Shown here: in pieces, positions 1,058 through 8,167 of the stretch
Layout of the letters: each line of letters opens with the position of its first letter
Position numbering within the stretch: position 1 is the first letter of the stretch
NCBI GenBank assembly: GCA_003819975.1
Contig: RPPU01000176.1
Span: 1-8,167, forward strand
Reading direction: 5' to 3'
DNA length: 8,167 bases
Source: Desulfobacteraceae bacterium
GTDB lineage: Bacteria > Desulfobacterota > DSM-4660 > Desulfatiglandales > HGW-15
Translations under genes and position numbers: made by a program
The notes under the pieces: model-generated
What the model saw: the letters and a program-made list of their open reading frames with translations, nothing else
Database searches by the model: none
Told to the model about the DNA's origin: nothing

Positions 1058-1098
1058 AAGATTCACCACAGAGGCACAGAGGACGCAGAGATTTATTC

Positions 1099-1159
1099 TT
1101 GATTTTTCAAACAGTTTTGTGAAGCTCAAAACTGTTGACTTGAGAGGAGAAAAAGTCAA
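1099..1159 (+). repeat. Complex hairpin module of element A
   Basis: The outer arms TTGATTTTTC (1099-1108) and GAAAAAGTCAA (1149-1159) pair with a one-base bulge. They enclose AACAGTTTT (1110-1118), a 9-nt loop and AAAACTGTT (1128-1136), then the motif TTGAGAGGA (1140-1148). Elements B and C carry the same inner hairpin, a 9-nt loop and the same motif, read on the minus strand, with different outer arms. AAACCAATC follows directly. Confidence 0.8.
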
Positions 1160-1278
1160 AACCAATCCTCTCTTTCAGACAAACGAAACAGAAGTTTGAT
1201 TCGTATGACCTCAACATCGTGCCGATCTTTGATCGACTTCATTGGTTTAAAATAAAACGAAATAATTGCACAGATTGG

Positions 1279-1313
1279 TTTTTGCTTTTGGCCCTCTCAG
1301 CCAAAAGCAAAAA
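1279..1313 (-). repeat. Simple hairpin module of element A
   Basis: A perfect 14-bp stem, TTTTTGCTTTTGGC (1279-1292) with its complement (1300-1313), encloses a 7-nt loop that reads CCTCTCA on plus and TGAGAGG on minus. On the minus strand the stem is followed by CCAATC, as in elements B and C, but the stem sequence differs from theirs. Confidence 0.85.
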
Positions 1314-1352
1314 ATATATCAATCTCTGTGTTCTCTGTGTCTCTGTGGTGAA

Positions 1353-2666
1353 TCAATCTTTCCTCTTCAGGTAGATCTCGCGCAGGCGGTCCAGGCGGTC
1401 TTTGGAATAAAAAACACAATCGCTTTTTTGCGCGTCTCCGGCGGCAATGTCTTTGGCTTGCGTCTTGCAATTCGGCGCGCCGCACAGACCGCAATTCAGC
1501 CCGGGCAAATCGGCCAAAACGGCTTCCGCTTCCTTGATACGCTTGATGCGTTCTTTCAAGTCACCCATATCGCCCTTGATGGATCGCGGCCGGATGGGCG
1601 CTTTGGCGTATAATTCCTTACCGGCAAACCGTCTGGCCACTTCTTCTTCAAGTCGCGGATCCGTTTCCGGAAGTTCCGCCATCAAGCGTTGCAGTTTGCT
1701 GCGGGTGATATAAAGATTATCCACGGTCAGGTTGCCGTTGATGCACCCCCCCCAACAAGCATAACACTCCAGAAAGTCCAGATTGCGCAATTTACCCTTT
1801 TCAATGTCGTCAAAAACCCGGATAATGTTTCTGAGACCGGTCAGGGACATATAGTTATAACCCTGAAGATTCCGGCGCTGGCCTTCGCTCATATCCCATT
1901 GGAATAGGTTCGCGCTGCGCAACAAATCCCTTGAAAGGGCCTTATGGTTGCTGATTTCCTTGTGGGATTGAGCGGCGGTCAAAATACCGTTATATACGTC
2001 CGCGATCCCGATGGCGCCGTCCAAATCACTCTTAACTCCTTCAGCCGGCTCGATGATCGAAATACTTTTGGCCTGGCAGGAGGTCACATAGATGGCGGCA
2101 ATTTCTTCCTTGGGGATCCCCAATTCCTTTGAGTATTTGCGTTTTAATTCGCGGCCGGCGAGCTCACGCGGCGGCTCGACGTGGATTAATTGTTCCACCC
2201 CGCCCGGATAGGCGACCTGGATCAAGCGCACAACCACCGGACAGGAACTGGATACCAGCGGCAGCCGGCCTTTCCAGGTCTGCATGTAATCGCGGATGGC
2301 CCGGTTGACCAGTTCGATCTCCTCCGCGATAATCCAGACCGCGTCAAAGCCCATGGCTTTGAGACCTTCCACAATATGCACCGGAGAGATGTTGGCCGGA
2401 AATTGGCCGAAAAGGACGGGTGACGGAACCGCCACTTTGTACTTGAACTTCCAAACTTCTTTCAAGGAACGGGTGGTGGCGGAAATGGCCCCGGTGGGAC
2501 AGACTTTTAAGCAGGAACCGCAATCGATGCAAAGCTCGGGTATAAGTTCGGCCTTGCCGCTGCGCACGCGGATGGCTTGAGTGGGACAAGAGCGCATGCA
2601 GGCCAGGTTGCCCGAACATTTTTCGCGATCGATTTTAAAGCTGTGGGTCCATTCATGCATTGGCAT
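1353..2666 (-). CDS. HydS-like sensory [FeFe]-hydrogenase homologue with C-terminal 4Fe-4S domain
   Basis: This 437-residue soluble protein has three parts. An N-terminal ferredoxin-like region has C17, C23 and C27-P for cluster one, and C46, C49, C52 and C56-P for cluster two. An H-cluster domain spans about residues 75-330. A C-terminal FeS domain has C392, C395, C400 and C417, exactly C-x2-C-x4-C-x16-C. The H-cluster motifs are modified: SSSCP (C142) instead of TSCCP, TSCQAK (C197, K200) instead of MPCxxK, and ECYACWGGC (C304, C308) instead of ExMxCxGGC. The four cluster cysteines and the lysine are kept, but the proton-relay cysteine is serine and both methionine positions are changed. 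This fits sensory group C/D enzymes better than catalytic group A. There is no PAS, kinase or phosphatase domain, which favours group D. It is last in a trio with an anti-sigma-like ATPase and a DRTGG protein, overlapping the ATPase gene by 14 nt, so a signalling role is inferred. The start is ATG 2666 or the in-frame ATG 2660; AGG lies 4 nt before the first. Confidence 0.88.
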   Translation of the reverse strand: MPMHEWTHSFKIDREKCSGNLACMRSCPTQAIRVRSGKAELIPELCIDCGSCLKVCPTGAISATTRSLKEVWKFKYKVAVPSPVLFGQFPANISPVHIVEGLKAMGFDAVWIIAEEIELVNRAIRDYMQTWKGRLPLVSSSCPVVVRLIQVAYPGGVEQLIHVEPPRELAGRELKRKYSKELGIPKEEIAAIYVTSCQAKSISIIEPAEGVKSDLDGAIGIADVYNGILTAAQSHKEISNHKALSRDLLRSANLFQWDMSEGQRRNLQGYNYMSLTGLRNIIRVFDDIEKGKLRNLDFLECYACWGGCINGNLTVDNLYITRSKLQRLMAELPETDPRLEEEVARRFAGKELYAKAPIRPRSIKGDMGDLKERIKRIKEAEAVLADLPGLNCGLCGAPNCKTQAKDIAAGDAQKSDCVFYSKDRLDRLREIYLKRKD

Positions 2667-3090
2667 TCAGCCTGATTCCGGCGGAAACCGTAGTCCCTTT
2701 TCCGACCCGGGATTCGATGTTTAAAAAATCCGAGTTCTTTTTAATGTTCGGCAAACCCATGCCGAACCCGAAACCCATTTCGCGCATTTCATCCGTCGCG
2801 GTCGAATAGCCTTCCTGCATGGCCTGCTGGATATCCGGAATGCCGGGGCCTTGATCCCGGATATCGATGCGGATATCTTCGTCCGTGATCACGAAATCCA
2901 TTTGTCCCCCATCGGCATACATCACCACGTTCATTTCCGCTTCAAAAGCCACCACCACCAGGCGGCGGATGATATCCGGCTCAAAATTGAGGCTTTTGAG
3001 CAAAGCCTTTATCTCCGTGGAATTCTCGCCGGCTTTGTCGAAATTGCGTGAAAAAATAGTGAATGTTTTTTTTAGCAGTTCCTCGACCAT
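2653..3090 (-). CDS. HATPase_c protein, anti-sigma factor (RsbW/SpoIIAB-like) type
   Basis: This 145-residue protein has the GHKL ATP-binding motifs of serine-kinase anti-sigma factors. The N-box is FEAEMN (E50, N54), the G1 box is DQGPGIP (D79 to P85), and the G2 glycines are GFGFGMGLPNI (G106 to I116). There is no histidine-kinase dimerisation domain, and the length is normal for RsbW/SpoIIAB proteins, which phosphorylate an anti-sigma antagonist or hold a sigma factor. No such partner gene is visible here. The ATG at 3090 is chosen because it follows the DRTGG gene's TAA by 2 nt and begins the family-like MVEELLKKTF; an upstream start would run 45 nt into that gene. AAAGG lies about 12 nt before it. 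Its end overlaps the HydS-like gene by 14 nt, indicating translational coupling. ATPases of this type recur beside HydS-like proteins in anaerobes, so it may carry the hydrogenase-like sensor's output. That role is inference. Confidence 0.88.
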   Translation of the reverse strand: MVEELLKKTFTIFSRNFDKAGENSTEIKALLKSLNFEPDIIRRLVVVAFEAEMNVVMYADGGQMDFVITDEDIRIDIRDQGPGIPDIQQAMQEGYSTATDEMREMGFGFGMGLPNIKKNSDFLNIESRVGKGTTVSAGIRLNANA

Positions 3091-3092
3091 GG

Positions 3093-3437
3093 TTACATAG
3101 CGCCTTTCAGGCCTTTCTCGCGCAACAGGCCGCACACATCGAACATTCCAAGACTGGTCGCCAAAACCGGTATTTTTTTCTGACGGGCCAGATCGACCGT
3201 CTTTTCATGGGGTCGCTTGTCGCGGATATAGACAATGGCCCGCACATCGGCGATATCCGCCGTGCGCACGGACTGAATATTGGTCAACCCGGTGATCATC
3301 AGGGCGCCGGGACTGTGAAATGCCAGGATCTCGCTCATACCATCCGAAGCCAGGACCGTGTTCACTTCCAGGCTCAAGTCCATTTCCGGGGTTAGGACCT
3401 CGCATTGCAGGATATTTTTGATCTCTTCCAATTTCAT
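3093..3437 (-). CDS. DRTGG-domain protein
   Basis: This small protein of 114 residues matches the DRTGG domain layout. It starts MKLEEIKNILQCEVLTPE, continues with the VLASDGMSEILAF strand-helix unit, has DVRAIVYIRDKRPHEKTVDLARQKKIPVL in pieces typical of the fold, and ends with the LATSLGMFDVCGLLREKG helix. DRTGG domains occur alone or joined to CBS and phosphotransacetylase-like domains; their ligand is not well defined. No transmembrane segment or cysteine cluster is seen. The ATG at 3437 is chosen over one at 3494: the extra 19 residues would start with SLCPLCLCGE, which is the translation of the CACAGAG repeat and not protein. No clear Shine-Dalgarno sequence is visible before 3437. It opens the trio with the ATPase (2 nt downstream) and the HydS-like gene; this trio recurs near hydrogenase genes, suggesting a sensing or adaptor role. 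Confidence 0.82.
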   Translation of the reverse strand: MKLEEIKNILQCEVLTPEMDLSLEVNTVLASDGMSEILAFHSPGALMITGLTNIQSVRTADIADVRAIVYIRDKRPHEKTVDLARQKKIPVLATSLGMFDVCGLLREKGLKGAM

Positions 3438-3500
3438 CGTTATGGACTGCTTTCTATATTCACCACAGAGGCACAGAGGGCACAGAGAGATCATTTTTCT

Positions 3501-3535
3501 TTTTTATTTTTCGTTGAGAGGACGAAAAATAAAAA
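3501..3535 (+). repeat. Simple hairpin module of element B
   Basis: A perfect 14-bp stem, TTTTTATTTTTCGT (3501-3514) with its complement (3522-3535), encloses the 7-nt loop TGAGAGG (3515-3521) and is followed by CCAATC. The stem differs in sequence from those of A and C, while loop size, loop sequence and tail are identical. Confidence 0.87.
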
Positions 3536-3578
3536 CCAATCTGCCATATAAATAAAAACAGATTTTCACTTGAGATTC

Positions 3579-3644
3579 TTTCTCCTTGCTGTCCTCTCAA
3601 CACAACAGTTTTATGGTTTTCAAAACTGTTTCAGCAAGGAGAAA
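3579..3644 (-). repeat. Complex hairpin module of element B
   Basis: The outer stem is a perfect 13 bp: TTTCTCCTTGCTG (3579-3591) with CAGCAAGGAGAAA (3632-3644). Within it are CCTCTCA (3593-3599) and the hairpin AACAGTTTT (3604-3612), a 9-nt loop and AAAACTGTT (3622-3630). The CCTCTCA segment is complementary to the simple-module loop at 3515-3521; the match extends to 11 nt, GTTGAGAGGAC with GTCCTCTCAAC. Confidence 0.87.
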
Positions 3645-3669
3645 AAAATTCATCTCTGTGATCTCTGTG

Positions 3670-3704
3670 CCACTGGAGTAATTTCAGTCTTATGAAATTA
3701 CGTC
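3670..3704. repeat. 35-nt palindromic segment inserted in the right terminus of element B
   Basis: In other complete termini the first and second CACAGAG units are separated by one base. Here they are separated by 35 nt that include a perfect inverted repeat, GTAATTTCA (3678-3686), a 6-nt loop and TGAAATTAC (3693-3701). The segment is absent from elements A and C. It may be a small separate palindromic insertion or a variant of the element. Confidence 0.65.
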
Positions 3705-3724
3705 CTCTGTGGTGAATCTTTTTT

Positions 3725-5122
3725 TCATTTACTACCTGAAAGCGCCGCGTGCATGGCTTTGGCCGCTTTGCGGCCGGCGCCCATGGCGCTGATCACCGTG
3801 GCTGCGCCCGTGACCACGTCGCCGCCGGCCCAGATCAGGTCGCGCGACGTTTTGCCGGTTTCTTCGTCCACTTCAATGTTGCCCTTTTTGCCGACTTTCA
3901 GTCCCGGCGTGGTCATGGGAATCAGGGGATTGGGACTGTTGCCGATGGCCACGATCACGGCGTCCGCCTTCATCCGAAACTCGGAACCCTTGATTTCTCT
4001 TGGACTGCGCCGACCCGAAGCGTCCGGCTCGCCCAATTCCATTTTAAGGCACTCGATCTCGGTCAACCAGCCCCGTTCGTCGCCGATCAAACGAATCGGC
4101 AAGGTCAGGTAGTCGAAGATCACGCCTTCTTCTTCGGCGTTTTCCGCTTCTTCGGCTCTGGCCGGCAGCTCTTCCTTGCTGCGGCGATAGACGATATGCG
4201 ATTCGTCCGCTCCGAGCCGCAGAGCCGTGCGGGCCGAATCCATGGCCACATTGCCGCCGCCGAAAACGAACACGCGGCCCGGCCGTTTCATGGGCGTGTC
4301 ATGGGCCGGAAAGCGGTAACCTTTCATCAGATTGCAACGCGTTAAATACTCGTTGGCCGAGTAGACGCCGTTGAGGTTTTCGCCCGGAATGCCCATAAAC
4401 CACGGCAAGCCCGCGCCGGCGCCGACAAAAACGCCGTTAAATTCTTCCAGAATACTGCTGATCGTGCGGGTCTTGCCCACGATGTAGTCCAGGTAAACCT
4501 TAACGCCCAGGCTTTTGACATAATCGACTTCGCGCTTGACGATCGCTTTGGGTAAACGAAATTCAGGGATGCCGTAGGTCAATACGCCGCCGGCCGCGTG
4601 CAGGGCTTCAAACATCGTAATCTCATAGCCGAGCAAAGCCAAGTCATTGGCCACGGTAATGCCGGCCGGACCGGTGCCCACAATGGCGATCTTCATGCCG
4701 TTCAAGGCGGCCATGGCCGGCTTTTCGCTTTTGCCCTCGGTCGCTTCGTAATCGGCTAAAAAACGTTCGAGACGGCCGATGGAAACCGATTCGCCCTTTT
4801 TGCCCAAAATGCATCTGTGCTCGCATTGTTCTTCCTGCGGGCAAACCCAGCCGCAGACCGCGGGCAAAGCATTGGTCTCTTTGATTTTCTTGATACCGGC
4901 GCTGAAATCGCCTTCCGCGATGCAATGGATGAATTCCGGGATTTTGACCCCGACCGGGCAACCTTGGCTGCATTGCGGTTTTTTGCAATTCAGGCAGCGG
5001 CCGGCTTCGGCCCGCGCCAATTCTTCGGTGTAACCCAGGGCCACTTCATCGAAATTCTTGATGCGTTCAAACGGTTCCTGCTTCGGCATGGGCCGACTTT
5101 TCAGATCGAGTTCTTTAGCCAA
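3725..5122 (-). CDS. nfnB: NfnB: NADPH-binding subunit of NADH-dependent reduced ferredoxin:NADP+ oxidoreductase (GltD-like)
   Basis: This 465-residue subunit carries FAD, binds NADP(H) and has two iron-sulfur clusters. The cysteine sets are C43-x2-C46-x4-C51-x3-C55-P and C90-x3-C94-x5-C100-x3-C104. The FAD motif is GTGPAG (149-154), the NADP Rossmann motif is GGGNVA (288-293), and the C-terminal FAD contact is WAGGDVVTGAATV. Homologues form NfnAB, a cytoplasmic complex coupling ferredoxin and NADH oxidation to NADP+ reduction by electron bifurcation. The same fold serves as the glutamate synthase small subunit, but no large subunit is here, and the nfnA neighbour favours Nfn or a sulfide dehydrogenase (SudAB)-type enzyme. 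The TTG at 5122 is chosen because AAGGAGG lies 8 nt before it and the protein then begins MAKELDLKSRPMPKQEP, a family-like start. The TTG at 5143 has no such site. Confidence 0.93.
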   Translation of the reverse strand: MAKELDLKSRPMPKQEPFERIKNFDEVALGYTEELARAEAGRCLNCKKPQCSQGCPVGVKIPEFIHCIAEGDFSAGIKKIKETNALPAVCGWVCPQEEQCEHRCILGKKGESVSIGRLERFLADYEATEGKSEKPAMAALNGMKIAIVGTGPAGITVANDLALLGYEITMFEALHAAGGVLTYGIPEFRLPKAIVKREVDYVKSLGVKVYLDYIVGKTRTISSILEEFNGVFVGAGAGLPWFMGIPGENLNGVYSANEYLTRCNLMKGYRFPAHDTPMKRPGRVFVFGGGNVAMDSARTALRLGADESHIVYRRSKEELPARAEEAENAEEEGVIFDYLTLPIRLIGDERGWLTEIECLKMELGEPDASGRRSPREIKGSEFRMKADAVIVAIGNSPNPLIPMTTPGLKVGKKGNIEVDEETGKTSRDLIWAGGDVVTGAATVISAMGAGRKAAKAMHAALSGSK

Positions 5123-5130
5123 TGTTTTTT

Positions 5131-5137
5131 CCTCCTT
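5131..5137 (-). promoter_or_regulatory. Ribosome binding site deciding the nfnB start
   Basis: A strong Shine-Dalgarno sequence, AAGGAGG on the minus strand, stands 8 nt before TTG 5122. It would lie inside the coding region if translation started at the TTG at 5143, so it supports the shorter protein with an unusual TTG start. Confidence 0.8.
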
Positions 5138-5210
5138 AACCAATCGCTCTTCACTAACACGTGCGGGTATTTTAAAGTCCTGACCGCAACCGACTTTGCA
5201 AAGATCTTCT

Positions 5211-5242
5211 ATATTTTTTTCCTTGTTTCAAGGAAAAAATAT
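5211..5242 (-). other. AT-rich hairpin at the nfnA stop, in the nfnA-nfnB gap
   Basis: A near-perfect inverted repeat has arms 5211-5225 and 5229-5242, CCTTG pairing with CAAGG flanked by T and A runs, and a 3-nt loop. It overlaps the nfnA TAA by one base and lies in the 119-nt gap before nfnB. No T-run follows the stem in the direction of transcription, so it is not a standard intrinsic terminator. It could slow or process the transcript and set the subunit ratio. It is unrelated to elements A-C. Nothing else convincing besides the nfnB ribosome site is seen in the gap. Confidence 0.5.
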
Positions 5243-6075
5243 TAGAAGTGCGAAGCGCAACCGCTCTTGCGCAGCGGATGAACTTCTTCAGGGTTATAAG
5301 TGCGCCGTCGATTGAGAAACTCCTGCCAATCGACTTCATGGCCGTCGAAATCCGGGCCGTCCACGCAGGCGAACTTGGTCGTGCCGGCCACGGTCAGGCG
5401 GCAGACGCCGCACATGCCGGTTCCGTCGATCATGATCGGGTTCATGTTCACCATGGTTTTGATGCCCATGGGCCGGGTCATTTCCGACACTTTCATCATC
5501 TGAAAAGTACAGCCGTTCACGATGATCCGGTCCGGTTTGATCTTTTCCAGGGTCAAAATCTCGGACAAACGCGTCAAATGGCCTTTATAACCATTGGTGC
5601 CGTCGCGGGTGATCTCCAATACGCGATCCGTGACCTTTTTATAGCGCTCCTGCCAGTAAAGCAGATACGCGCTGCGTGCTTCGAGCAACACGTAAACCGC
5701 ATTGCCTTTTTCCTTCAAAGCCCGGGCAATGGGATAAACGCTGCCGATGCCGTAACAGCCGCCGATGCAAAGCACCGTGCCGTAGTTTTCTATCTCCGTT
5801 TCCCGGCCGAGGGGCCCCGCAAAAGTCGGAATGGTGTCGCCCGGTTTGAGCCGCGCCAGTTTGGCCGTGGAAGCGCCTACTTGCATAAAAATGACCGTGA
5901 CCGTTCCGGCTTCCCGGTTCCAGTCCGCGACCGAAAGCGGCACGCGCTCGCCGTTCTCATCCGGCCGGACGATCACGAAATTTCCCGGTTGAACCGATCG
6001 GGCCACATCCGGCGCTTCCACCACGAATTCGTGCAAATTCGGCACGATCATCCGGCGTTCAATGACTTTGTACAT
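5242..6075 (-). CDS. nfnA: NfnA: NADH-binding flavin and 2Fe-2S subunit of the Nfn (SudB-type) oxidoreductase
   Basis: This 277-residue protein has the layout of the ferredoxin-NADP reductase-like small subunit. A beta-barrel FAD domain carries RVPLSVAD (44-51) and the stretch KPGDTIPTFAGPLG (77-90). The nucleotide-binding part contains GGCYGIGSVYPIARAL (105-120). A C-terminal 2Fe-2S site has C222, C225 and C237 with D217 five residues before the first cysteine (IDGTGMCGVC). I recall that Thermotoga NfnA uses an aspartate and three cysteines for this cluster, and the pattern here agrees. With NfnB it should bind NADH and FAD and take part in flavin-based bifurcation in the cytoplasm. The ATG at 6075 follows GAGAGGAAG closely. 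The nfnB gene follows after 119 nt, so the two are probably one transcript. Element C lies 58 nt upstream. A sulfide dehydrogenase (SudB) role cannot be excluded by sequence alone. Confidence 0.92.
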   Translation of the reverse strand: MYKVIERRMIVPNLHEFVVEAPDVARSVQPGNFVIVRPDENGERVPLSVADWNREAGTVTVIFMQVGASTAKLARLKPGDTIPTFAGPLGRETEIENYGTVLCIGGCYGIGSVYPIARALKEKGNAVYVLLEARSAYLLYWQERYKKVTDRVLEITRDGTNGYKGHLTRLSEILTLEKIKPDRIIVNGCTFQMMKVSEMTRPMGIKTMVNMNPIMIDGTGMCGVCRLTVAGTTKFACVDGPDFDGHEVDWQEFLNRRRTYNPEEVHPLRKSGCASHF

Positions 6076-6158
6076 TCTTTATCTTCCTCTCGATAAGGTT
6101 ATCTTCTGATCTCAAGTAAATTTAAAAATATTATTTCACCACAGAGATGATTTTGATT

Positions 6159-6193
6159 TTTTGACTTCCCATTGAGAGGATGGAAAGTCAAAA
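6159..6193 (+). repeat. Simple hairpin module of element C
   Basis: A 14-bp stem with one mismatch, TTTTGACTTCCCAT (6159-6172) with ATGGAAAGTCAAAA (6180-6193), encloses the loop TGAGAGG (6173-6179). CCAATC follows. Stem length, loop and tail match elements A and B; the stem sequence does not. Confidence 0.85.
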
Positions 6194-6211
6194 CCAATCT
6201 ACCAACGAGCT

Positions 6212-6281
6212 TTTTTATCCCTCTCGTCCTCTCAACATAACAGTTTTAAGATTTTGAAAACTGTTTCGAGAGGGATAAAAA
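6212..6281 (-). repeat. Complex hairpin module of element C
   Basis: A perfect 15-bp outer stem, TTTTTATCCCTCTCG (6212-6226) with CGAGAGGGATAAAAA (6267-6281), encloses CCTCTCA (6228-6234) and the hairpin AACAGTTTT (6239-6247), a 9-nt loop and AAAACTGTT (6257-6265). The layout is identical to element B with a different outer stem. Confidence 0.87.
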
Positions 6282-6323
6282 TAATCTCCCTGTGCTCTCT
6301 GTGTCTCTGTGGTGAATTCTTCT

Positions 6324-8167
6324 TCATATATCCGCACGTTGCAGGTTCACCCGGACCGGGTTGGAGGGCAAACCTTGGAAGAAATCCCAACCCCGGAATC
6401 CGCTTAAGCCCCCGAAATTGAGCGGCTGAAACGCATACACCGTCCCGGCCGGACAATCCGGGTCTGCTTTGGCTTTGAGTTCCAGTTTTTTGCCGTCCAG
6501 GGATATGGTTACCGTATCGCCCGGCTTAAGCGCCAAACGCTCCAGGTCATCCGGATTCAGGCGCAAGCCTTGCTCCAAGCCCAGTTCTCCCAGGCCTTCC
6601 ACCACGCCGGAGAGGTCCATGCCGCGATGTTGGAAGCCGCCTTGTTCGACCATGAGCAGAAATTCGCCTTTGCCGGCCGGCGCCTGGTTCTTCTTCTCAA
6701 TGATCAACTCGCTTTTGGCCTTGAGCTGACGCGGTTCCCGGTCCGGTTTGGCCGGGAAATGAGAAACAACTTCATGGATTTCTTCCAGAATTTCCTCTGC
6801 GTTTTCGTATTTCAACGCTTTACAATCGAGTTTTTGGCTCAACTCCGCAAAAATCCGCCAATCCGGCCGCACAAAACCGGTTACAGCCCCCGCGATCGGG
6901 TTTTCGATCCCGACCAGCTCCTGAATCCGGCCCTCGATATTGGTTAGAGTGCCGCGGCTTTCGGCAAAACTGGCTGCCGGTAAAAAGGCGTCCACCGCGA
7001 ACGGCGGAAAATAAATGTCCTGGCTGATCAGAAAATCGCAATCCGGCCGTTCCGGAAACGGGGCTTGACCCACCAGATAAATCACTTTGGGTCGTTTGCG
7101 TTTGGCGAGCACGTCGGCCAAGGAAATCTCGGGGCCCTTGGTCTTGACCACGCCGGGCAGTAATTCGCCGAAGGCCCCCAGTTCCAGGGCTCCGCGCACA
7201 TTGGCGCCGTGATAAAGCGGCATAAAAAAAGTTTGCGGCCGTTTGGCCAATTCGAAAAGCGCATCGAGCAATTCGATGTTATTGCTGTACTCGAAAACCG
7301 TTGGTCCCAGGATGACCGCCAGGTGTTCTCCGGCGCTCAGCCATTCAACGGCCTTTTTAAGTTTCTCTTCGTCCACGCCCGCTTCCTTGGCCGTGGTTTT
7401 TAAATTGCTGCGGTGACCGGCCAGGCGTTGCGCCAGGCTGCTCAGCAGCAGGCCTTCGCGACCGGGCGAAGGCTGCAAATGATGATCGGTGTAACGCGCC
7501 AGGTTGGTATCGCGGGCGTCGATGGTCACAAGCCGGGCGCCCGCTTTAAGCGCGCGCCGGATTTGAACGCCGGCCACGGAAAAATAAAAACGCGAATCCA
7601 GACCCACGGCAATGATCGTATCCGCTTGCGCAATCTCTTTGATGGAGATCGGCAGGGAAAAGAGCTTGCTCCACAAACCCAGGCCGCCGGAGAGATTCAG
7701 CCGCGCGGTGGAGTCGATGCTGTTGTTGCCCAGGCAGGACCGCACGAACTTCTGGGCCGCATAAAGGCTTTCATTGGTCAGATCGCCCGACACCAGCATG
7801 AGAAACTCTTCCGGTTTGATTCCTTTCAGCTTGGCGCTGACTTCTCCCTGGGCTTCCGGCCAGGTCACCTCGCGGAAATACTTGCCGCGCCGAAGCATCG
7901 GTTTCTTGGCGCGTTCATGATGATGGGTGGTTTCCGGCAGGGAGAACCGGCCGCGCACGCAGAGTTGGCCGTCGTTGATCTCCGGATCCGGGTGCGGATA
8001 GACCTTGGAAAGCTTGCCGTCTTTATGATGTAAATCGATTTGGCAACCCAGGCTGCAAAACGGACAAGTCGAAATGGCGCTGCCGTCCGGCTTGCCGTCC
8101 CACTTGGAACCTTTATCCGCCAGGGCGCCGGTCGGACAGACCGAGACGCAGGCGCCGCAAAATTCGC
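6324..8167 (-). CDS. NuoG/formate dehydrogenase-like Fe-S and molybdopterin-fold protein, 5' end missing
   Basis: The frame is open from the right edge to the TGA at 6324-6326 (613 residues visible). The partial first codon ends in GC and would be Cys if its missing base is T. It would complete a ferredoxin motif, C-EF-C-GA-C-VSV-C-P. A molybdopterin 4Fe-4S domain follows: C34-x2-C37-x3-C41-x27-C69, then VRGRF. The central molybdopterin-fold domain includes AQADTIIAVGLDS and AVDAFLPAASFAESRG; the C-terminal barrel includes DLERLALKPGDTVTISLDG. In formate dehydrogenase the fold carries a catalytic Sec or Cys followed by His after the 'DxxARL' stretch. Here DSTARLNLSGGLG has neither, and the usual C-x-K-G lysine is R71. 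This suggests an electron-transfer subunit like NuoG or Nqo3 rather than formate dehydrogenase, though a different metal ligand is possible. Upstream Fe-S domains and partner subunits would lie beyond the window. It precedes nfnA-nfnB, with element C between. Confidence 0.85.
   Translation of the reverse strand, partial: EFCGACVSVCPTGALADKGSKWDGKPDGSAISTCPFCSLGCQIDLHHKDGKLSKVYPHPDPEINDGQLCVRGRFSLPETTHHHERAKKPMLRRGKYFREVTWPEAQGEVSAKLKGIKPEEFLMLVSGDLTNESLYAAQKFVRSCLGNNSIDSTARLNLSGGLGLWSKLFSLPISIKEIAQADTIIAVGLDSRFYFSVAGVQIRRALKAGARLVTIDARDTNLARYTDHHLQPSPGREGLLLSSLAQRLAGHRSNLKTTAKEAGVDEEKLKKAVEWLSAGEHLAVILGPTVFEYSNNIELLDALFELAKRPQTFFMPLYHGANVRGALELGAFGELLPGVVKTKGPEISLADVLAKRKRPKVIYLVGQAPFPERPDCDFLISQDIYFPPFAVDAFLPAASFAESRGTLTNIEGRIQELVGIENPIAGAVTGFVRPDWRIFAELSQKLDCKALKYENAEEILEEIHEVVSHFPAKPDREPRQLKAKSELIIEKKNQAPAGKGEFLLMVEQGGFQHRGMDLSGVVEGLGELGLEQGLRLNPDDLERLALKPGDTVTISLDGKKLELKAKADPDCPAGTVYAFQPLNFGGLSGFRGWDFFQGLPSNPVRVNLQRADI

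Follow-up and report, generated by a model that had tools for sequence, protein, structure and literature searches.

Palindromic spacer elements of a Desulfobacteraceae gene cluster and their probable kinship with GxxExxY gene cassettes

Three elements in the spacers of a redox gene cluster

We analyzed a stretch of 8,167 bases from a Desulfobacteraceae bacterium (contig RPPU01000176.1; hereafter the window), in which three palindromic elements, A (1061..1353, minus strand), B (3458..3717, plus strand), and C (6135..6317, plus strand), take up nearly all of three intergenic spacers. From the Pfam domains of its genes we interpret the window as a redox gene cluster. It encodes molybdopterin oxidoreductase parts, an iron-only-hydrogenase-like protein, an ATPase-domain protein, a DRTGG protein, a pyridine-nucleotide-disulphide oxidoreductase with an iron-sulphur domain, and a protein with a dihydroorotate-dehydrogenase-B-type iron-sulphur domain. 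Among the matches listed for the hydrogenase-like protein, the closest named relative, from Candidatus Krumholzibacteria, was 78% identical, and a relative from metagenome contigs (P0001) was 94% identical. The scanned window genes included neither a Y1 (RAYT) transposase nor an S23 domain, and the Rfam scan gave no rRNA match.

The initial annotation had described one layout for the three elements, and all three were found where it had placed them. Arrays of CACAGAG at both ends (3/3 elements) enclose a simple hairpin with the fixed loop TGAGAGG and the tail CCAATC (3/3) and a complex module with CCTCTCA and a AACAGTTTT/AAAACTGTT hairpin, a palindrome that is constant across the copies. Element A lies between two convergent genes and has the opposite orientation to B and C. 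Its left end array (CACAGAG / CACAGAG / CGCAGAG, 1061..1090) falls within an inverted repeat, I4, that is 89% complementary, and its right end array (1323..1353) is the partner arm; these arms, 221 bp apart, match at 33 of 37 columns, which is poorer than the hairpins with 7-nt loops. The complex module (1093..1165) and the simple hairpin (1271..1314, stem 14/14) of A are both on the minus strand. Element B, in a minus-strand gene run, occupies the spacer between the genes at 3093-3437 and 3725-5143, with a left end array (3458..3488), a simple hairpin (3500..3543, stem 14/14), and a complex module (3575..3647), both on the plus strand, and a right end array (3653..3717). A separate 24-nt palindrome, GTAATTTCA/TGAAATTAC, splits this last array at 3678-3701. 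Element C, between the genes at 5242-6075 and 6324-8165, has a single unit in its left end array (6135..6148) and three in its right one (6287..6317); its simple hairpin (6158..6201, stem 13/14) and complex module (6210..6282) are again on the plus strand.

The complex modules of A, B, and C scored 83.5, 98, and 97.7 bits with model R2, which was built from these same copies. R2 also matched the opposite strand of the simple hairpin in each element (E 7.6e-6, 1.2e-5, and 9.9e-5; these E-values are rough), so that the core consists of two inverted hairpins, one with TGAGAGG and the other with CCTCTCA. The complex module resembles the simple hairpin turned round, with a loop that holds the AACAGTTTT/AAAACTGTT palindrome.

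The simple hairpins aligned without gaps over 44 columns. It had been noted that each simple stem has its own sequence and its own complement at the same 14-bp length, and this was so in A (14/14), B (14/14), and C (13/14); an arm set against the arm of another element matched at 7 to 10 of 14 positions. In the alignment of the three stems 97.6% of 42 cells were paired, with one cell unpaired, and the compensatory change that had been proposed was present: seven of 14 pairs were altered on both sides and none on one side only, a count that comes from only three rows. None of 500 shuffles reached the observed percentage of pairing, number of pairs changed on both sides, or covariation score, and 60 of 500 reached the observed number of further pair types. 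The claim that the outer stems of the complex modules also differ yet pair held for B and C, perfect over the 13 and 15 pairs counted, and less well for A, whose outer stem is bulged and gave four counted pairs.

GxxExxY genes within inverted word arrays

The end sequence TTCACCACAGAGGCACAGAG was found exactly in 42 viral-contig stretches (33 contigs), and 20 of 199 Acidobacteriota genomes contained its inner 18 bases; a backward control occurred in none. The elements with such ends that were inspected measured 68 to 457 bp and had varied interiors. The CACAGAG elements of one genome (G030; L141, L146, L149, L153, and L155) have further GC-rich palindromes inside their ends, as if collecting palindromes. 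Another element with CACAGAG ends, of 457 bp (L127), holds between leuC and leuD a gene of the GxxExxY family (TIGR04256, PF13366), whose products have a PD-(D/E)XK nuclease fold. Genes of this family are common: 7,997 of 8,000 scored candidates matched it at E 1e-10 or better. They were present in 73 of the 199 Acidobacteriota genomes; of the 20 genomes that have the ends, 16 contained such a gene (Fisher p 4e-5). Because four-helix genes (TIGR02436, S23-type; 19/20) and Y1_Tnp genes (18/20) were enriched in the same genomes, co-occurrence at the genome level says little, and only physical linkage discriminates.

CACAGAG ends were found at 11 of 30 GxxExxY loci, against 0 of 30 four-helix and 1 of 30 Y1_Tnp loci. 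At some of the 11 the ends lie far from the gene; they are within 250 bp of it in eight full-flank loci, on both sides in four. Four-helix genes were accordingly rejected as carriers of CACAGAG ends. These counts also bear on a REPIN-type element moved by a Y1 (RAYT) transposase, which would account for the two inverted hairpins per element and for the Y1_Tnp genes in most genomes with the ends. We regard it as very unlikely, since linkage was limited to the single Y1_Tnp locus, among 26 Y1 loci the five with the highest scores have different palindromes at their flanks, like those of repetitive extragenic palindromic (REP) sequences, and the unpaired tail is CCAATC in all three elements instead of GTAG or CGTC, the tags given for REP hairpins in PMC3733652. 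The Y1_Tnp genes at L236, L238, L239, L242, and L243 are flanked by inverted REP-like hairpins, as known for RAYT genes.

The bracketing of GxxExxY genes extends beyond CACAGAG. From at least 233 matches across 73 genomes we took the 130 loci with the highest scores, which are not a random draw, and tested 129, one flank being too short. Inverted flanking repeats of any word, at a local score of at least 16, were present at 102 of the 129; the highest shuffle scored 15, and none of 54 control windows away from the gene in the same loci had such repeats (highest score 12.5). The cut of 16 was chosen after the shuffles had been seen, and the 102 include a few long palindromes of a different kind (e.g., L306 and L308). 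The arms were periodic at 6 to 12 bp in 95 of 102 loci, compared with 19% of shuffled arms. Their words include CACAGAG, CACCGAT, CGCGAAT, CACCAAG, CACGGAA, ACAGGATT, and GCGGAG; the word differs between elements and mostly agrees between the two ends of one element. In 91 of 92 cases an element's own arms matched better than the average for elements with the same word, and in 61 better than the best of those. On the GxxExxY tree the words cluster, with 38 changes against a shuffled mean of 64.4 and none of 200 shuffles as low, a pattern that shared descent alone would also give. This test used the 97 rows with a clear word, reduced to a four-letter code that does not separate CACAGAG from CGCAGAG. 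Of the seven plasmid records with GxxExxY, four were also bracketed, among them Bacteroides finegoldii with CACAGAG and a Sphingomonas cassette between fabD and fabG.

The feature common to this class, inverted arrays of a 7-10-bp word with the same word at both ends, is found in A, B, and C. These have no GxxExxY gene inside and so can only be non-coding relatives of the bracketed class. In this way CACAGAG arrays, a widespread bacterial repeat, are placed in a class, and GxxExxY genes gain a genomic setting: palindromic word arrays enclose them, and they lie between host genes, mostly in the sense direction. In the literature searched (mostly open papers, no preprints), which was seen in part, we found no paper giving a function for GxxExxY, no description of GxxExxY cassettes, and, with matches for CACAGAG and inverted repeats judged by title, none of the end sequence.

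Two further observations concern bracketed loci. Four-helix genes (L190-L219) have inverted short-word arrays at 22 of 25 full-flank loci (score of at least 16; shuffle means near 8 in the rows shown), with words unlike those of GxxExxY, and 15 of 23 have both neighboring frames in sense and one has both in antisense. In one genome, two GxxExxY elements with differing flanks (L167, 1418-1868, and L251, 418-868) are 86% identical over 451 bp, including an outer GTAACTACTCAGGT; the inverted partner of GTAACTACTCAGGT lies on the other side of the L167 cassette, which therefore seems nested in another, larger palindromic element.

The leuC-leuD spacer was compared in seven related Acidobacteriota genomes of the G137 family (L357-L362 and L371). 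Six have an element, the words differ, and the arms of all six score above all 50 shuffles of each. The end word is CACAGAG in G137 and CGCAGAG in G003, both with a GxxExxY gene; these two words are one letter apart and share the same four-letter code in the tree test. G059 has ACAGGGAGG-type ends and a GxxExxY match covering the gene in part, and G033 has CACGGAG ends without the gene. The element of G128, with CACGAAG/CACAAAG, measures 127 bp, and that of G019, with CGCAAAG/CGCCAAG on one side and CGCGAAG on the other, measures 103 bp and has arms that agree only in part. The seventh genome, G110, has GxxExxY near leuD at a contig end, where a single arm is visible. A single old element may have changed its word in place, or insertion may have recurred at this one spot. 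The protein tree does not settle which: among the leuC-leuD GxxExxY proteins L177 and L253 are near each other, yet L168, from another site, is equally near.

Stem pairing read as RNA or as DNA

Compensatory change with fixed loops had been taken in the initial annotation as the sign of a selected RNA structure. On that explanation each spacer would encode a cis-acting or small RNA with the constant loops as contact sites, and the TGAGAGG loop could pair with the CCTCTCA of the complex module. The seven pairs changed on both sides, the constancy of the loops, and the presence of both TGAGAGG and its complement in 3/3 elements are what such an RNA would give. A selected RNA stem with seven double changes is, however, expected to show one-sided G-U steps, and the 14-pair simple stem has none. 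The inner stems that we selected for counting, in which the bulged outer stem of A contributes only four pairs, comprise 101 pairs, 100 of them Watson-Crick and one a mismatch; this mismatch would be G-U on the opposite strand only, and the element strand has no G-U pair. In the end arms of 96 GxxExxY elements (of 102 bracketed loci, six long alignments being left out), 3603 aligned pairs included 115 G-U pairs in sense and 109 in antisense (p 0.74); counted by element, the bias was 43 versus 33 (p 0.30). These data give no sign of strand-specific selection, although weak selection may still act and they come from the end arms of relatives and not from the inner hairpins of the window.

Placement also speaks against the RNA explanation: A sits in inverted orientation where two genes converge, and B and C are within a run of minus-strand genes. 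The Rfam scan of the window, with matches up to E 1, returned no family at its curated score; two weak mir-320 matches on the complex module of C (6212-6289; 27.1 and 23 bits, threshold 55.5) probably reflect the chance resemblance of a long hairpin. Because G-U pairs are lacking in the window stems and no G-U strand bias was observed in the end arms of relatives, the RNA explanation is unsupported, and we consider it improbable. The matching of the stems in A, B, and C looks like a habit of the DNA and not like an RNA under selection. Even perfect compensatory change among copies need not point to RNA selection, and a usable test lies in the lack of G-U steps on one side and of a strand bias in G-U pairs.

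Orientation bears on another explanation at the RNA level. At the 106 of 130 GxxExxY loci with an open frame of at least 90 codons on both sides (the longest open frame, not a gene call), both neighboring frames run in the direction of the gene in 69 and both against it in five. This sense orientation between co-directional frames would suit a cassette like an intervening sequence (IVS), whose palindromic ends would pair in the transcript of the operon and give a double-stranded stem for RNase III to cut, the insert being removed or tolerated, so that pairing and not sequence is selected. The similarly bracketed layout of the S23-type four-helix genes is in line with it, and there is a precedent in the 23S rRNA intervening sequence of Coxiella, which according to PMC4990558 has a small open reading frame and a 28-bp inverted-repeat border and is cut by RNase III in vitro. 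The sense orientation may, however, merely reflect a need for host transcription; the sense-strand G-U excess that such a stem should carry is absent from the relatives, and the window stem has no one-sided G-U step. We hold this explanation to be unlikely, if somewhat less so than the other two.

A cassette interpretation and its relation to known systems

Our preferred interpretation, to which we give a probability of about 0.6, is that A, B, and C represent, without a gene of their own, a broad class of small DNA cassettes in bacteria, that their gene-bearing kin carry GxxExxY, and that the stems are re-matched by arm-templated DNA copying. Cassettes of this class are bounded by inverted arrays of a short word (CACAGAG in the window), and the coding members carry the small nuclease-like gene, mostly in sense between co-directional host reading frames. 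When one stem arm mutates, the other would be re-copied from it by hairpin-templated repair or template switching, most efficiently at a short loop, so that the stems would drift in sequence yet stay matched. A, B, and C may derive from or depend on GxxExxY, which would act on the palindromes, and the constant loops and tails may be protein contact sites. As an alternative the initial annotation had offered a mobile repeat that is non-autonomous and in which template switching keeps the palindromes perfect. The evidence favors that alternative, in which movement itself, and template switching as the process that re-matches the stems, are presumptive; what is added here is the GxxExxY gene carried by relatives that share the ends.

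Several results weigh against this interpretation, besides the enrichment of four-helix and Y1_Tnp genes in the genomes with the ends. The Pfam scan found no GxxExxY gene among the window genes, nor was one present in the 42 viral stretches with CACAGAG ends, and repeats were absent at the score cut from 27 of the 129 GxxExxY loci and from three of the seven plasmid records (Prevotella, Persicobacter, and Treponema, at shuffle level). The core, too, was met only in the window. A covariance-model search for further copies returned none in 199 Acidobacteriota genomes (R1 only, without a positive control), and R1 and R2 run on 29 chosen sources of 357 matched in the window only. The complex-module pattern was absent from the viral contigs, and the scan of genome contigs ended at one match, rejected as chance, which had neither the ends nor the simple hairpin in the 601 bases read. 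The short pattern of the simple hairpin gave 66 viral-contig stretches, four of which passed a loose filter with stems of 8-10 of 14-16; the best stem was 10 of 16, and none had the ends nearby. A distant DNA search of B in plasmids gave two 11% matches, to the end array only. With no copy of this core found outside the window, it is the ends and the architecture that tie A, B, and C to the GxxExxY class.

Movement and re-copying are also opposed by some of the counts. Among 80 coding relatives, a set with A, B, and C outside it, none had a target-site duplication of at least 5 bp (0.9 expected by permutation), and no clean empty site was obtained. Forty-eight locus pairs share flank between loci, most with the element included, so any movement is slow or old. 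In 19 non-overlapping shared-site pairs, 15 columns were altered in both arms and 71 in one arm; by a rough estimate, independent change of the arms would give fewer than one matched double change, and the arms were chosen by alignment, which favors pairing.

A wider proposal is possible, and we advance it tentatively, as less probable than not. The cassettes could be pan-bacterial and self-palindromizing, each with its own end word, its arms being rewritten together, with word and resident GxxExxY changing together and the word turning over at one operon spacer while the palindrome persists. The nuclease, which would have a Cas4/RecB-like and Holliday-resolvase-like fold, might cut extruded hairpins and so drive both arm re-matching and spread; the gene-less A, B, and C might use it in trans, and the four-helix (S23-type) genes might be a second branch of the same architecture.

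Miniature inverted-repeat transposable elements (MITEs) of DDE transposons are non-coding and have terminal inverted repeats, as A, B, and C do, but the coding relatives lack a target-site duplication and the word-array ends vary between elements. The REPIN / REP-RAYT system, as presented in PMC3116915, is similar in being small, non-coding, and intergenic, with two inverted hairpins and an associated enzyme encoded elsewhere; our elements differ from it in their word-array ends, in the missing GTAG tag, and in the linked gene, which encodes a nuclease-fold protein and not a Y1 transposase. The 23S rRNA intervening sequences with an S23 open reading frame (PMC4990558) are likewise short cassettes with a small open reading frame and an inverted-repeat border, whereas A, B, and C lie in spacers of protein genes and the gene of their relatives is a different one. 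The cassettes work somewhat like REPIN or intervening sequences, but the defining features of both were tested and were not found. From the GxxExxY family as it appears in the papers found, which were seen in part and in which we did not meet bracketing arrays, A, B, and C differ in having no gene; the tie to it is that relatives with the same CACAGAG ends carry one.

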